Assembly: GCA_000196815.1 (NCBI GenBank)
Contig: FP929003.1
Coordinates: 3,743,501-3,807,500, forward strand
Length of the DNA: 64,000 nt
Origin: Nitrospira defluvii
GTDB lineage: Bacteria > Nitrospirota > Nitrospiria > Nitrospirales > Nitrospiraceae
Reading direction: 5' to 3'
Made by a program: the position numbers and the translations under genes. Shown in pieces: positions 1 through 34,521 of the stretch. The notes under the pieces were generated by a model. It was not told the origin of the DNA. It saw only the letters and a program-made list of their open reading frames with translations, and searched no databases. Positions within the stretch are counted from its first letter, which is position 1. Each line of letters opens with the position of its first letter.

Positions 1-234
1 CCACAATCCGGACCGTATCCTCCGCCCGGCGACGACACCATAGATTCGACGTTGAGTCTTCACTGGTTGGCCTCCCACATGGGTACCGGAAAAGTCCACT
101 CACTCCCTGCGCAGGTCATCATGAAGAACCGTACCATGTGGTTGCCGATCCGCCAAAAGAGAATTACATTTGAGACGCACCGTCGATCGGAGTCAGATAC
201 AGAAGACCGATCAAATTAATGAGGCCAGGAAATC

Positions 235-699
235 ATGCCGCAACATCACGACATAGGACGGGTAGAACTGACCGACTGGACCACCACAGGGTCGGCCATC
301 AGAGCGATTCGTGAAACGGTGTTTATCCACGAGCAGGGAGTGCCGGTGGAACTGGAGTGGGATGGGCTCGATTCAGCTTGCGCCCATGTGCTGGCATGGA
401 ACAACCGAGGAGAGGCCATCGGCACGGCACGCATGCAACAGAATGGCACCATCGGCAGGATGGCAGTCCTCAAGGACTGGCGCGGCCGCGGCGTCGGACG
501 GGCCCTTCTCCGGACGTTACTGGATCTGGCGACGAGACGAGGGCTCTCCCGCGTGACCTTGTCCGCACAGACCCATGCGCTTGGATTCTACGAACGAGCG
601 GGGTTCGATGTGGTCGGCGAGCCTTTCATCGACGCCGGCATTCCGCATCGGAAGATGGTGAAAGAACTATACGGTGTCGCCGATACCGTCCAACCTTGA
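235..699 (+). CDS. GNAT family N-acetyltransferase (YjcF/ElaA-like)
   Basis: A 154-aa single-domain acetyl-CoA-dependent acyltransferase; the substrate cannot be told from sequence. The N-terminal half carries the FIHEQGVP...E-D-D...H signature typical of YjcF/ElaA-like GNATs, and motif A is visible as RMAVLKDWRGRGVGRALL (RGRGVG pyrophosphate loop, about residues 79-96). The C-terminal ARNATHALGFYERAGF-type block is also present as SAQTHALGFYERAGF. The ATG is preceded by AGGA at 4 nt. It stands alone, downstream of 234 bases in which I recognise nothing, and next to the AT-rich insert that begins at about 720. Family assignment is firm, function open. Confidence 0.85.
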   Translation: MPQHHDIGRVELTDWTTTGSAIRAIRETVFIHEQGVPVELEWDGLDSACAHVLAWNNRGEAIGTARMQQNGTIGRMAVLKDWRGRGVGRALLRTLLDLATRRGLSRVTLSAQTHALGFYERAGFDVVGEPFIDAGIPHRKMVKELYGVADTVQP

Positions 700-31044: not shown

Positions 31045-31851
31045 TCACAGCCGATCTAATAGCTGCTGTTTCTTCAGGCGATACTCCTCTTCCGTAATCA
31101 GTCCCCGGTCGTGAAGACCCTTGAGCACAGCAAGCCGTTCTTCCAACGAAGACGCGGAGGAAACCGTTGGCGTTCCCTCCGGTGCAGCGGGCACCGCCGC
31201 CTCATTGCGCTTGGAATCGTCGATCACCAGTTCCACCGGATCGGGGCGAAACACCCCACCGCCACCGGACGGCTTACTCACCAAGGCCTGGCGATTCCCC
31301 GGCACCAGTTCATAGAATGTTCCAGCCTGCGCAAAGAGCGGATCGATCCAGATTTGCGTTCGTATGGATGGCATGGTTACGGCGATGCGACAGTTGGACA
31401 ACCGTAGATGGATTCGGCCGTCCTCGACAAACCAGGCGCCTGAAGTCACTTGCGCTGGCCCCTCATCCGTCGCCCGCGCCGTCGCGAAGACAACCGCCTC
31501 TTGCTCCGTTGCCTGTTGAAACGCCTGCCGGAGTGAGGATCCCAGAGCGCGAACCTCTGTATCCAGAAACACCGGTTCCGTGGCACCCTGGTACGACGGC
31601 CCCAACAAAGGGCTGTGCGTACTGCGTACCATCACACCCCGTAGGAGTGTCTCCCACTCTGCCTGCGACAGATTCACCGGATGCTGAAATCGCCTCCCCT
31701 GATCGTTCGACCGGAGCTTTGCCATCGGGACAATTCTCACCACCCGCTGGTCGTCGCAGAAGAAGCAGGGAGGCTCGGCTTGAGGCGTCGCAGTCGCGCA
31801 ACCGACCAATACCAGGCACAGCCAAGGCCATCCCGCCTTACCCCGTCGCAT
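31045..31851 (-). CDS. Lipoprotein with C-terminal SHOCT domain
   Basis: A 268-aa protein. The N-terminus MRRGKAGWPWLCLVLVGCAT carries a lipobox (VLVGC). The central part is a globular domain of unknown type, and the last 35 residues (SLEERLAVLKGLHDRGLITEEEYRLKK) are a classic SHOCT helix-turn-helix, an oligomerisation module. I prefer the ATG at 31851 because GGAGGG lies 6 nt upstream; ATG at 31857 is immediately adjacent to that sequence. It is the last gene of a minus-strand run with the outer-membrane cytochrome. Confidence 0.78.
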   Translation of the reverse strand: MRRGKAGWPWLCLVLVGCATATPQAEPPCFFCDDQRVVRIVPMAKLRSNDQGRRFQHPVNLSQAEWETLLRGVMVRSTHSPLLGPSYQGATEPVFLDTEVRALGSSLRQAFQQATEQEAVVFATARATDEGPAQVTSGAWFVEDGRIHLRLSNCRIAVTMPSIRTQIWIDPLFAQAGTFYELVPGNRQALVSKPSGGGGVFRPDPVELVIDDSKRNEAAVPAAPEGTPTVSSASSLEERLAVLKGLHDRGLITEEEYRLKKQQLLDRL

Positions 31852-31895
31852 GAACATCCCTCCCCTCAGTGACCATTGTTCCCCTGTCGCAGCAT

Positions 31896-33362
31896 TCAGT
31901 ACGCAAAATCGAACCCGACCAACATCGTCTGACCGAGAAGATCGCCGCCGTTCGTTCCCACGCCGGTCGTGCGATAACTATTGTACTCCGCATGGAGAGC
32001 CAGATCGGTCCTGGTCGAATGATGAATGAAGTAGCGGACCAAGACCGTATGTGAATCGACGTTATTATAATTCTTGGCGAACGTCGGGTCGCCCTGCCGA
32101 TTGTTGCGAATGAGATCGTACCGGTAGGCGAAAAACCAATCCGGCATCTCGAAAAACGGCAACAGCGCCGGCGCATAGTCAAGTTCGACAAAGGCGCCGT
32201 TCCATGAGGCGTTCTGCGCATCGGCAATGCCTTGGGAGACGAACATGTTTTTGCTGTCGTTGCCCCACATCCAGGCACCGAACAGGTTCCATTCCCCGTT
32301 CAACGTCAGACTGACATCGACGCCTAAACGACTGAACGGTTGCCCACTCCCGGCCACGGCCTGGCAGGTCGGGCAGGTCGGATTGACCAACGTCGGTGCC
32401 GTACCGTAGGCGCCGAAGAGGCCGATTCGCTGTCCCGTCACGATGCCGTACCCGCCGAACGATTGCGTCACATGGCCGTAAAAGTTGACGTTCCTCCCGC
32501 CCGTTCCGCAGGTGGTTCCGGACGCGCAGCCGCTCAAGGGGCCGGAAAAACTGTTGGTCGCCAGGGCGGAAAAGGAGTAACGAAAATACCCGTCGGTCCC
32601 TGTCGTCTTCTTGATGCCCGACAATTCCGCACCTGGTTGATTCTCACCGATGGCAAAGGTATTCGGATTGAGATAGGAACTGGTGGAGGTACCGCCGATC
32701 GTCGCCGTGTAGGGCGTCCCCGGCATGTAGTGGTACATCGCAAACGTCGTGTTCAACGTCGGGCTGCGCTTTTCGCTGAACGGAAGGTCGAGTTCAAATT
32801 TGCCGACCTTGAGGTTCAACAGGTAGTCGCCGCTCGCGCTCTTCACCCCCAGGAACCGTTCGAGCCGCATGAGCCGAACAAATGCCGCTTCCAAGTCGCC
32901 ATCCGACGCGCCTGTCCCGAAGCCTGCGCTGCCGAGTCCGGGCGTGAAGACGACACCGAAAGCCAGATTGCGATCCAGCGTGCCGAAACTCAACAGGTCC
33001 AGTCCGGTAAACCCGAACCCGCCGGTCGTCACGCCGCTCCCGTCCGTTCGCACATTCGCCGCCTGATACCCGACGGTGGTGCGGAGCGACACCGGCCAAT
33101 AGCCCATCCCGATGCCTTCATACACCGGCGAGTCCGCATCCGAACCCAACTGATAGCCACGATCCCTGAACAGGTTGCCGAAGTCGTTCAGTTTCGGGAA
33201 ACCCGGCACATGGCAGACATTACACTTGAAGTCGTATTTGCGGGCAAATGCCGGAATAGCCTCGGCCCTCTGCACGAAGCCGCTCAATTCGTAGCTGACC
33301 ATCGCGAACAAGACGAGCAGCGCCGCGATCCCAGCCCTGACATGACCTATCGAGTACTTCAT
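31896..33362 (-). CDS. Outer-membrane beta-barrel with N-terminal haem c site
   Basis: A 488-aa exported protein. After a signal peptide (about 1-36), a single CxxCH (C47-NV-C50-H51, in YDFKCNVCHVPGFPKLNDFGN) is followed by a long beta-rich sequence with alternating hydrophobic strands, Gly/Asn-rich turns and a C-terminal aromatic residue in a ...MLVGFDFAY end typical of outer-membrane barrels. The N-terminal haem site plus barrel suggests a porin-like electron-transfer protein. It lies 72 nt downstream of a cupredoxin-like gene. Two CPTC/CASGTTC clusters in the barrel (about 280, about 340) could form disulfides in loops. Architecture is seen; function is inferred. Confidence 0.78.
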   Translation of the reverse strand: MKYSIGHVRAGIAALLVLFAMVSYELSGFVQRAEAIPAFARKYDFKCNVCHVPGFPKLNDFGNLFRDRGYQLGSDADSPVYEGIGMGYWPVSLRTTVGYQAANVRTDGSGVTTGGFGFTGLDLLSFGTLDRNLAFGVVFTPGLGSAGFGTGASDGDLEAAFVRLMRLERFLGVKSASGDYLLNLKVGKFELDLPFSEKRSPTLNTTFAMYHYMPGTPYTATIGGTSTSSYLNPNTFAIGENQPGAELSGIKKTTGTDGYFRYSFSALATNSFSGPLSGCASGTTCGTGGRNVNFYGHVTQSFGGYGIVTGQRIGLFGAYGTAPTLVNPTCPTCQAVAGSGQPFSRLGVDVSLTLNGEWNLFGAWMWGNDSKNMFVSQGIADAQNASWNGAFVELDYAPALLPFFEMPDWFFAYRYDLIRNNRQGDPTFAKNYNNVDSHTVLVRYFIHHSTRTDLALHAEYNSYRTTGVGTNGGDLLGQTMLVGFDFAY

Positions 33363-33434
33363 CGCTCTCTCCCACGACACACCGTGTCGTCATAAAATCC
33401 GGCGGTCCCGGCGTCAGCCTGGCCCGGCGGTTGG

Positions 33435-34298
33435 TTATTCAGGCAGACGGTCCTCTCCACCGGCAATGTTCCAATCGACGTCGACCGGACGGACAGGAAA
33501 TTCAAATTGTGATTCGACCAGAGCCCGCGGTGCGATCGTCACCGTCTTCCGAGTGACATGGGGCTCGTCGTAGACCGGACGAGAGGCGTTGAACTTGACG
33601 ATGTTATAGCCGGAATGCCAGGCCATCACGGTGTACGATCCCGGCGGGATGCCGCTGATTTCAAACCGCCCCTCTGAATCGGTCACGGCGAAATAGGGGT
33701 GATCGAACGCCGCCGCCCAGGCGTTCATGTGCACATGCACATCGCATTGCAGCCGCAGCCCGACCCCTCGGGCTCTGGACAACGTGGTCGTGATTTCTCG
33801 ATCGGGAGTCGGCAAGGCGAGGTTAAACAGGCTGGCCTGTTTCTCAGTGAAAAAATGGGGATTGTGCAGCACCGGTTCGAGATTGATCAGCCCGACCTGT
33901 GACGTCCGCACAAAGGGAAAGACCGGATGGTGAAACTGGCAGGTCTGCGCTGTTGACGCCGCTGCTCCTTTCCCCATGGGAAGGCGATAGATGGCCTCGG
34001 CCGCCTTTCCTCGTTCCACCCGCTCAACATACACCAGCACATCCTGGATGCCGTTCGTAGCCGGGTCGATGCGCAAGACAGGCGACGGCACCTGCGTGCC
34101 GCAGGCATCAAGATCAGCGAACACTCTGAGCGGCGGAACCTTAGGGATGGCCCCCTTCCACACGGCCTGACCCTTGATCGTTCCTCCGTCGGGCACCTCG
34201 ATGACGTCATAGTCCGCCCAGGCCGGAGCAGCCCCTCCCAGACAGAACAGCCCCAGAAATAACAGAAGGCAATAAATGCGTGAATCGCGTCCGGACAT
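33435..34298 (-). CDS. Exported cupredoxin-like/carboxypeptidase-regulatory-domain protein
   Basis: A 287-aa protein with a signal peptide (about 1-28). The C-terminal half contains LQCDVHVHMNAWAAAFDHPY followed by FAVTDSEGRFEISGIPPGSY, a cupredoxin-like block with Cys and His residues that could bind copper, merged with a carboxypeptidase regulatory-like fold. The N-terminal part is GTIKGQAVWKG...ACGTQ, another beta-rich domain. The ATG at 34298 has GGGAGG 6 nt upstream. It is immediately upstream of the haem-barrel gene and may act with it in extracellular or periplasmic redox chemistry. Metal content is inferred. Confidence 0.75.
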   Translation of the reverse strand: MSGRDSRIYCLLLFLGLFCLGGAAPAWADYDVIEVPDGGTIKGQAVWKGAIPKVPPLRVFADLDACGTQVPSPVLRIDPATNGIQDVLVYVERVERGKAAEAIYRLPMGKGAAASTAQTCQFHHPVFPFVRTSQVGLINLEPVLHNPHFFTEKQASLFNLALPTPDREITTTLSRARGVGLRLQCDVHVHMNAWAAAFDHPYFAVTDSEGRFEISGIPPGSYTVMAWHSGYNIVKFNASRPVYDEPHVTRKTVTIAPRALVESQFEFPVRPVDVDWNIAGGEDRLPE

Positions 34299-34349: not shown

Positions 34350-34388
34350 AAAAAAGCCCGAACCACCCAGTTACGGGTCGTTCGGGCT
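34350..34388 (-). terminator. Intrinsic terminator
   Basis: On the minus strand the sequence reads GCCCGAA, an 18-base loop region, TTCGGGC and then T6 (stem at 34356-34362 and 34381-34387, T-run at 34350-34355). It lies between the O-methyltransferase gene (stop 34522) and the cupredoxin-like gene (start 34298), both on the minus strand; it may terminate the former or attenuate the latter. Confidence 0.7.
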
Positions 34389-34521
34389 CGGAGCGGTACG
34401 CTCTATGGCCTCGCAGTATGTCGAAACGAAGAAAACGCTACGCTTGTTGGTTCCTCCTTGTCAAGATCTCGGTGCGGGGATTCTCGCGGCGCGCTGACGG
34501 CTGCCCTTCAATCTCCGGACG

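Follow-up and report, generated by a model that had tools for sequence, protein, structure and literature searches.

A Cyc2-type haem porin and an adjoining inserted cupredoxin form a probable electron-uptake module in Nitrospira defluvii

A 64,000-nucleotide stretch of the Nitrospira defluvii genome (contig FP929003.1, positions 3,743,501 to 3,807,500; hereafter the window) carries two neighboring minus-strand genes, A and B, that probably constitute an outer-membrane electron-uptake module, in which a Cyc2-type haem porin is paired with a periplasmic copper acceptor. Gene A (31896..33362; 488 amino acids (aa) from its ATG, with a GTG at 33380 also open) almost certainly belongs to the Cyc2 family of fused monohaem cytochrome-porins, where it was placed by published descriptions of signature and fold. 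Gene B (33435..34298; 287 aa) is predicted from sequence and model to be a type-1 copper cupredoxin of the plastocyanin/amicyanin fold, probably exported (its signal peptide was judged by eye). The linkage of the two genes is conserved, and their products quite likely exchange electrons.

The Cyc2 signature of gene A lies at its N terminus, which reads AIPAFARKY, three residues, CNVCH, four further residues (VPGF), and PKL. In the Cyc2 consensus, the motif AxPxFAR[QK][TY], described as unique to Cyc2, precedes the CxxCH and PxL follows it (Keffer et al. 2021, PMC8406198). The first motif is published as lying 5 amino acids upstream of CxxCH, as against three residues in gene A. Gene A and all 20 genus orthologs carry the complete signature at exact spacing, as do 40 of the 45 family loci; PxL four residues after CxxCH is present in 43 of these 45. 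An earlier sequence-only reading of the window had noted the single CxxCH at C47/C50/H51 (codons 33210-33224, within a predicted haem c domain at 33156..33266, minus strand, residues 33-69); this numbering is correct for the ATG start, and the motif occurred in 25 of 20,000 shuffled gene A sequences. Homologues, whose inspection for additional haem sites that reading had recommended, carry exactly one CxxCH in all 20 genus orthologs.

More distant relatives came from a scan of a species-genome collection, of which the best 80 of 567 relatives of gene A were retained, 34 being close to the Nitrospira type and 46 being others. Because the scan was seeded on AIPAF[AS]R[KQ][YT], conservation of AxPxFAR in the 80-locus set proves nothing; CxxCH was not seeded, and it is kept in 78 of the 80. 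The two open reading frames (ORFs) lacking it (L132 and L178) start behind the motif, with separate N-terminal-like pieces just upstream. In the remainder of this set, PxL follows CxxCH after four residues in 33 members, after three in 42, and at neither offset in 3. Nine gene A residues (A35, P37, R41, C47, C50, H51, L58, G62, and G69) are invariant in alignments A1 and A3.

A barrel behind the CxxCH, as the sequence-only reading had supposed, was predicted by AlphaFold2. The model of gene A, built with 60 aligned sequences (mean predicted local distance difference test (pLDDT) score 82, predicted template modeling (pTM) score 0.81), has 16 strands between residues 92 and 487, in a barrel region spanning 31899..33089 on the minus strand (residues 92-488). 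Its best PDB matches are OprP (2o4v; Z 24.3 over 323 residues, root-mean-square deviation (rmsd) 3.8) and OprO (4rjw; Z 24.1), and further porins score within 1 Z unit of these; Cyc2 of Mariprofundus is likewise described as having 16 strands, with OprO/OprP as its nearest structures (PMC8406198). Seventeen charged or histidine residues on the strands are conserved at 80% or more, and 14 of them are predicted to face the lumen, including H457 (93%) and E459 (100%), both on one strand; at a guess, the lumen-facing ones might bind metal. Gene A itself has no family in Pfam or NCBIfam, and among the 60 members of alignment A3, two match the porin model BBP2 and none match any NCBIfam model. The nearest named relatives are from Nitrospira, including a Nitrospira defluvii isolate at 98% identity, and among plasmids the nearest named match is to a protein of Caballeronia (42% over 52 residues, E 3e-3). 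PDB sequence matches to influenza haemagglutinin (E 0.06 and worse) were taken as chance.

For gene B, the AlphaFold2 model (pLDDT 86.7, pTM 0.82) indicates a cupredoxin at residues of about 101-199 (33702..33998, minus strand). Its closest PDB structures are plastocyanin 7pcy, aligned with residues 103-198 (Z 11.6 over 89 residues, rmsd 2.2), and amicyanin 4p5r, aligned with residues 101-198 (Z 10.6); Foldseek likewise ranks amicyanin first (E 4.5e-4). The outer parts match carboxypeptidase-regulatory-like (CPD-like) domains, namely 6hif_Y (82 residues within 34..272) and 2nsm (79 residues within 39..270), at Z 9.8; since these flanking parts appear to form a single CPD-like sandwich, the cupredoxin would be inserted in that domain. 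In Pfam, CarboxypepD_reg scored 30.1 bits, just below its cutoff of 32.3, and fn3_3 scored 24.9 bits (cutoff 24.4). The NCBIfam model S_layer_anammox matches 29 of 53 B members (best 4.8e-7) and not the gene B of the window, a match taken to reflect the shared sandwich domain.

Across 53 aligned gene B sequences, the only invariant positions are G43, H145, C185, H188, M191, and G210, that is, the four type-1 copper ligands (codons at 33864-33866 for H145, 33744-33746 for C185, 33735-33737 for H188, and 33726-33728 for M191, all on the minus strand) and two glycines. The same four ligands are invariant in 19 of 19 sequences of another comparison, and their C-x2-H-x2-M spacing is that of amicyanin. 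A regular expression for the ligand set missed seven of 104 B-family matches, two of which are fragments; the other five are rows of alignment A4, in which all four columns are invariant. A merely structural role for gene B as a CPD-domain protein was rejected, because the four copper ligands are invariant. Thus, the neighbor is cupredoxin-like, as first read from the sequence, whereas the label "Cys/His-rich" given to it then is replaced by a regular type-1 copper ligand set.

Members of the B family were also encountered outside such pairs. In Acidobacteriota, extra copies lie upstream of the Cyc2-like gene but run in the opposite direction (L163 3286-3996, L167 3304-4137, L176 1890-2888, and L179 847-1665) and keep the four ligand columns in alignment A4. 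Homologues of gene B occur on 44 plasmid records, 33 of them from Sinorhizobium, and on a Phyllobacterium zundukense plasmid (L205 429-10579) one lies near SCO, hemA, and cbb3-type oxidase genes.

Within the genus, an ortholog of gene A is present in 23 of 28 genomes, and gene B lies directly upstream of it on the same strand in all 23 (the 20 fetched loci L054-L073, together with L201, L202, and the window). Among the 27 genomes that are at least 85% complete, 22 hold both genes and five hold neither; a second copy of A in one genome (G023), 52% identical, has no B (L098).

In the genome scan, B was found near A in 15 of the 34 loci close to the Nitrospira type. Of the 46 distant loci, 31 have a same-strand B no more than 1.5 kb from A (27 of the 33 with full flanks), a share that is not a census since these loci were drawn from the best 80 of 567. 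The 46 include one Nitrospirae metagenome-assembled genome (MAG), L146. B recurs beside distant Cyc2-like genes of Acidobacteriota, Gemmatimonadota, and Gammaproteobacteria. Plain synteny of close relatives was therefore insufficient to account for the adjacency, because B adjoins homologues of A that are about 28-36% identical in other phyla. The arrangement seen in the window, with B immediately before A, is also found in two gammaproteobacterial loci (L149 and L158) and three from Acidobacteria (L163, L167, and L178). The order A, dihaem cytochrome, B was observed in 26 of the 46 (27 with L152, where two genes intervene), and COX1 or COX2 lies downstream within the fetched flank in 18 of them, the identity of COX1, COX2, and COX3 having been assigned by Pfam on one member each. 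In Acidobacteriota and Gemmatimonadota (L147-L191; for instance, L191 7968-14610), the order is Cyc2-like gene, dihaem cytochrome, gene B, COX2, COX1, COX3.

These oxidase genes bear on the direction of electron flow. A haem-bearing pore and a copper carrier would be workable in either direction, which sequence does not fix, and the pair might instead pass electrons to an outside acceptor under oxygen shortage. Such outward release is very unlikely: type-1 copper is usually of high potential and poorly suited to driving electrons outward, and cox genes follow in relatives of the pair. In addition, characterized Cyc2 proteins oxidize Fe(II) (PMC8406198).

In the other genera of the family, a different carrier often occupies the position of B. 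A monohaem cytochrome c on the same strand precedes A by at most 500 bases in 14 of 24 fetched loci (L074-L097), or 15 counting L089, where gene A is split. In a tree of A drawn with a midpoint root, the loci with B upstream (the 20 of the genus and L075) form a clade, with support 100/99, that is nested among cytochrome-bearing loci. The corresponding tree group (cyt1_up) has 16 rows, including three outside the 14 (L089, as well as L084 and L095, whose upstream cytochrome-like ORF has no CxxCH), and L083, one of the 14, falls in a separate group. One locus, L127, carries both carriers, in the order cytochrome, B, A. Read plainly, the cytochrome has given way to the copper protein in the genus, an exchange that a one-electron carrier allows. 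The cytochrome need not have been strictly replaced or lost, because relatives of it persist in all 28 genus genomes, at 61% identity at best.

This exchange also speaks to copper acquisition or storage, in which A would be a copper-uptake pore and B a copper chaperone, as the complete ligand set of gene B might suggest. That account is highly improbable, in that a plastocyanin/amicyanin fold with all type-1 ligands points to electron transfer, gene A keeps a c-type haem site for which a copper pore has no need, and a cytochrome c is often found in the place of B in sister genera. Of the two roles that the sequence-only reading had offered, the redox conduit is favored by the Cyc2 signature and fold, the copper site, and the dihaem cytochrome and oxidase neighbors in other phyla, whereas copper handling is not.

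The genome of the window (4,317,083 bases, a single contig) has seven B-family genes, two of which stand beside its two A-family genes. The second Cyc2-like gene (L011 7443-10470; genome C1 784.4-787.5 kb) is 29% identical to gene A over the matched part and is followed by a dihaem cytochrome c, a gene B paralogue, and two hybrid histidine kinases. Six of the 15 other loci of this kind share the layout. Among the 16 family loci that hold more distant Cyc2-like genes (L011 and L099-L113), seven have the order A, dihaem cytochrome, B, and in those seven, genes of a histidine-kinase cluster (two members checked by Pfam) then follow. These kinases lend themselves to a metal-sensing or protective role, in which A and B, instead of serving energy metabolism, would act at the cell surface to sense or clear reactive Fe(II) or Cu(I). 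An RND efflux gene near some A loci (e.g., L122) fits the same idea, and for Sideroxydans a possible part of Cyc2 in iron sensing has been discussed (PMC12016527). It is nonetheless unlikely for the window pair, since its locus is adjoined by genes for an O-methyltransferase, a methyltransferase, and a TerC protein, with neither a kinase nor an efflux gene, and the cytochrome oxidase genes that follow in 18 of the 46 distant loci point to respiration.

Elsewhere in the same genome (L012 6680-16637; genome C1 3.27-3.28 Mb), three paralogues of the gene B family lie within about 5 kb downstream of a multicopper oxidase gene (Cu-oxidase_3, 1621 aa); this oxidase could be the MnxG-type oxidase reported in Nitrospira.

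Several observations weigh against electron uptake by an A-B module. The haem region of the gene A model is poorly predicted (10-residue means of 31-74 over residues 31-90), and the fold searches are not informative on the haem domain owing to this low confidence. No COX1 match was found in the window genome, although eight of 14 control genomes were positive, so that a downstream path of the Acidobacteriota type is not applicable to it. To our knowledge, Nitrospira is not a recognized iron oxidizer. Partner adjacency, which was upheld in the genus and in distant relatives, fails in the other genera of the family, where B stands beside A in only two of the 24 fetched loci (upstream in L075 and 0.9 kb downstream in L083); a contig-end copy outside the 24 (L200) also has B upstream of A. 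Among the distant loci, 15 of 46 have no B within 1.5 kb, some of them with short flanks, and six of these (L175, L181, L183, L189, L192, and L193, hosted by Bacteroidota, Krumholzibacteria, Zixibacteria, Phycisphaerae, and an unplaced MAG) carry instead, immediately before A, a gene for a CCP_MauG-type dihaem protein (Pfam on one). Nine family genomes outside the genus hold a close B, which is beside A in three (G121, G124, and G126) and not in six (L194-L199, with no A within the fetched stretch). In L195, L196, and L198, the close B directly precedes an Alginate_exp outer-membrane barrel without CxxCH, and the B rows of L195-L198 nest in a clade of B that otherwise adjoins Cyc2-like genes. 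B need not, therefore, serve only Cyc2, because a haem-free barrel adjoins it in three loci.

In the electron-uptake module as proposed, the 16-strand porin of gene A would sit in the outer membrane, with its N-terminal single-haem domain presumably plugging the periplasmic mouth. A reduced donor would enter the pore from outside and pass one electron to the haem, from which it would move to copper in gene B, the periplasmic acceptor, and then to the periplasmic cytochrome pool. Fe(II) is favored as the donor because characterized Cyc2 proteins oxidize it, and Mn(II) is possible because Cyc2 is among the candidates in Ca. Manganitrophus (PMC9040806) and sand-filter Nitrospira MAGs encode both MnxG and Cyc2 (PMC12070406). 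That the donor is one or the other of these metals has about an even chance.

The conserved neighbors A and B, which the sequence-only reading had treated as a two-gene pair, are joined by a third gene in a minus-strand run of B, A, and a SHOCT-domain gene, with gaps of 72 and 38 bases. The third gene (31045..31857, minus strand) encodes a probable lipoprotein of 270 aa with a C-terminal SHOCT domain (36 bits) and a lipobox, LVGC, seen by eye; its N-terminal part has no Pfam family match. All 20 genus loci and 20 of the 24 loci of the other genera have a relative of it downstream of A, which makes it the most constant neighbor of gene A across the family. A probable terminator (34354..34389, minus strand) splits the upstream O-methyltransferase gene from the run; its hairpin of -27.7 kcal/mol is followed by a T run (z -5.15; none of 200 shuffles was as good), and it was absent from a separate hairpin scan limited to loops of 3-8.

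It is tentatively proposed that the inserted cupredoxin is a previously undescribed acceptor for a large Cyc2-type branch in at least four phyla (Nitrospirota, Acidobacteriota, Gemmatimonadota, and Pseudomonadota), one that was exchanged for a cytochrome c within the Nitrospira family and that may let nitrite-oxidizing Nitrospira take in electrons by a second route, from dissolved Fe(II) or Mn(II). Nitrospira are common nitrifiers in water treatment. The present results bear both on how electrons leave Cyc2 outside Acidithiobacillus ferrooxidans and on possible Fe(II) or Mn(II) oxidation at the Nitrospira surface, and the conserved, small copper partner, which is probably soluble and can be purified, opens both questions to direct tests. 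In Acidobacteriota and Gemmatimonadota, the order A, cytochrome, B, cox could serve as a genomic marker for possible metal oxidation.

Among known systems, gene A shares with the Cyc2 family (Mariprofundus ferrooxydans PV-1, Acidithiobacillus ferrooxidans, and Cyt572 of Leptospirillum) the single N-terminal CxxCH, both motifs, and an OprP/OprO-like 16-strand barrel, and at 488 aa it exceeds the length of at least 365 aa used for that family; it differs in its nitrite-oxidizing host and in having gene B as a partner. Gene B, in turn, shares its fold and the H, C, H, M ligand set with amicyanin and plastocyanin, but differs from them in being a 287-aa protein with the cupredoxin inserted in a second beta-sandwich. 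No carboxypeptidase-regulatory-like part such as that of gene B is known from rusticyanin or AcoP.

The statement in the sequence-only reading that no described system has such a pair was too strong. Besides the fit of gene A to Cyc2, earlier papers already describe Cyc2 homologues from nitrifying Nitrospirales (PMC9040806, PMC12070406) and from vent Nitrospirae (PMC7329443), and Cyc2 together with copper proteins makes up the iron chain of A. ferrooxidans (PMC5982212, PMC10654088). Literature searches on Cyc2 with copper proteins, over listed titles, opening lines of abstracts, and selected passages and mostly outside subscription papers, revealed no description of a gene-B-type partner; one on Cyc2 together with Acidoferr gave no paper. 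In Ca. Tenderia, Cyc2 does share an expression cluster with a protein that has a cupredoxin domain (PMC5371394), and Sideroxydans grown on magnetite expresses cupredoxins, one with polysaccharide-lyase-like domains, in the cluster Slit_1812-1818 (PMC12016527); by analogy, these domains recall the fn3_3 match of gene B. On megaplasmid pSBC1_3 of Caballeronia sp. SBC1 (L204 5936-8953), a high-potential iron-sulfur protein (HiPIP), a Cyc2-like cytochrome, and a dihaem cytochrome stand side by side, so that a Cyc2-like protein adjoins a small redox carrier as in the window, the carrier being an iron-sulfur protein and not a copper protein.

A further comparison is with A. ferrooxidans. There, Cyc2 accepts the electrons first, and rusticyanin and cytochrome c4 pass them on to cytochrome oxidase; the operon also encodes another copper protein, AcoP (PMC5982212, PMC10654088). 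The rus operon, cyc2-cyc1-cup-coxBACD-rus (PMC10654088), combines Cyc2 with a periplasmic copper protein, as the window pair appears to do. The window locus differs in having neither a dihaem cytochrome nor cox genes beside A and B, in a genome that also lacks a COX1 match, whereas the relatives in Acidobacteriota and Gemmatimonadota, with A, a dihaem cytochrome, and B followed by COX2, COX1, and COX3, resemble the rus operon.

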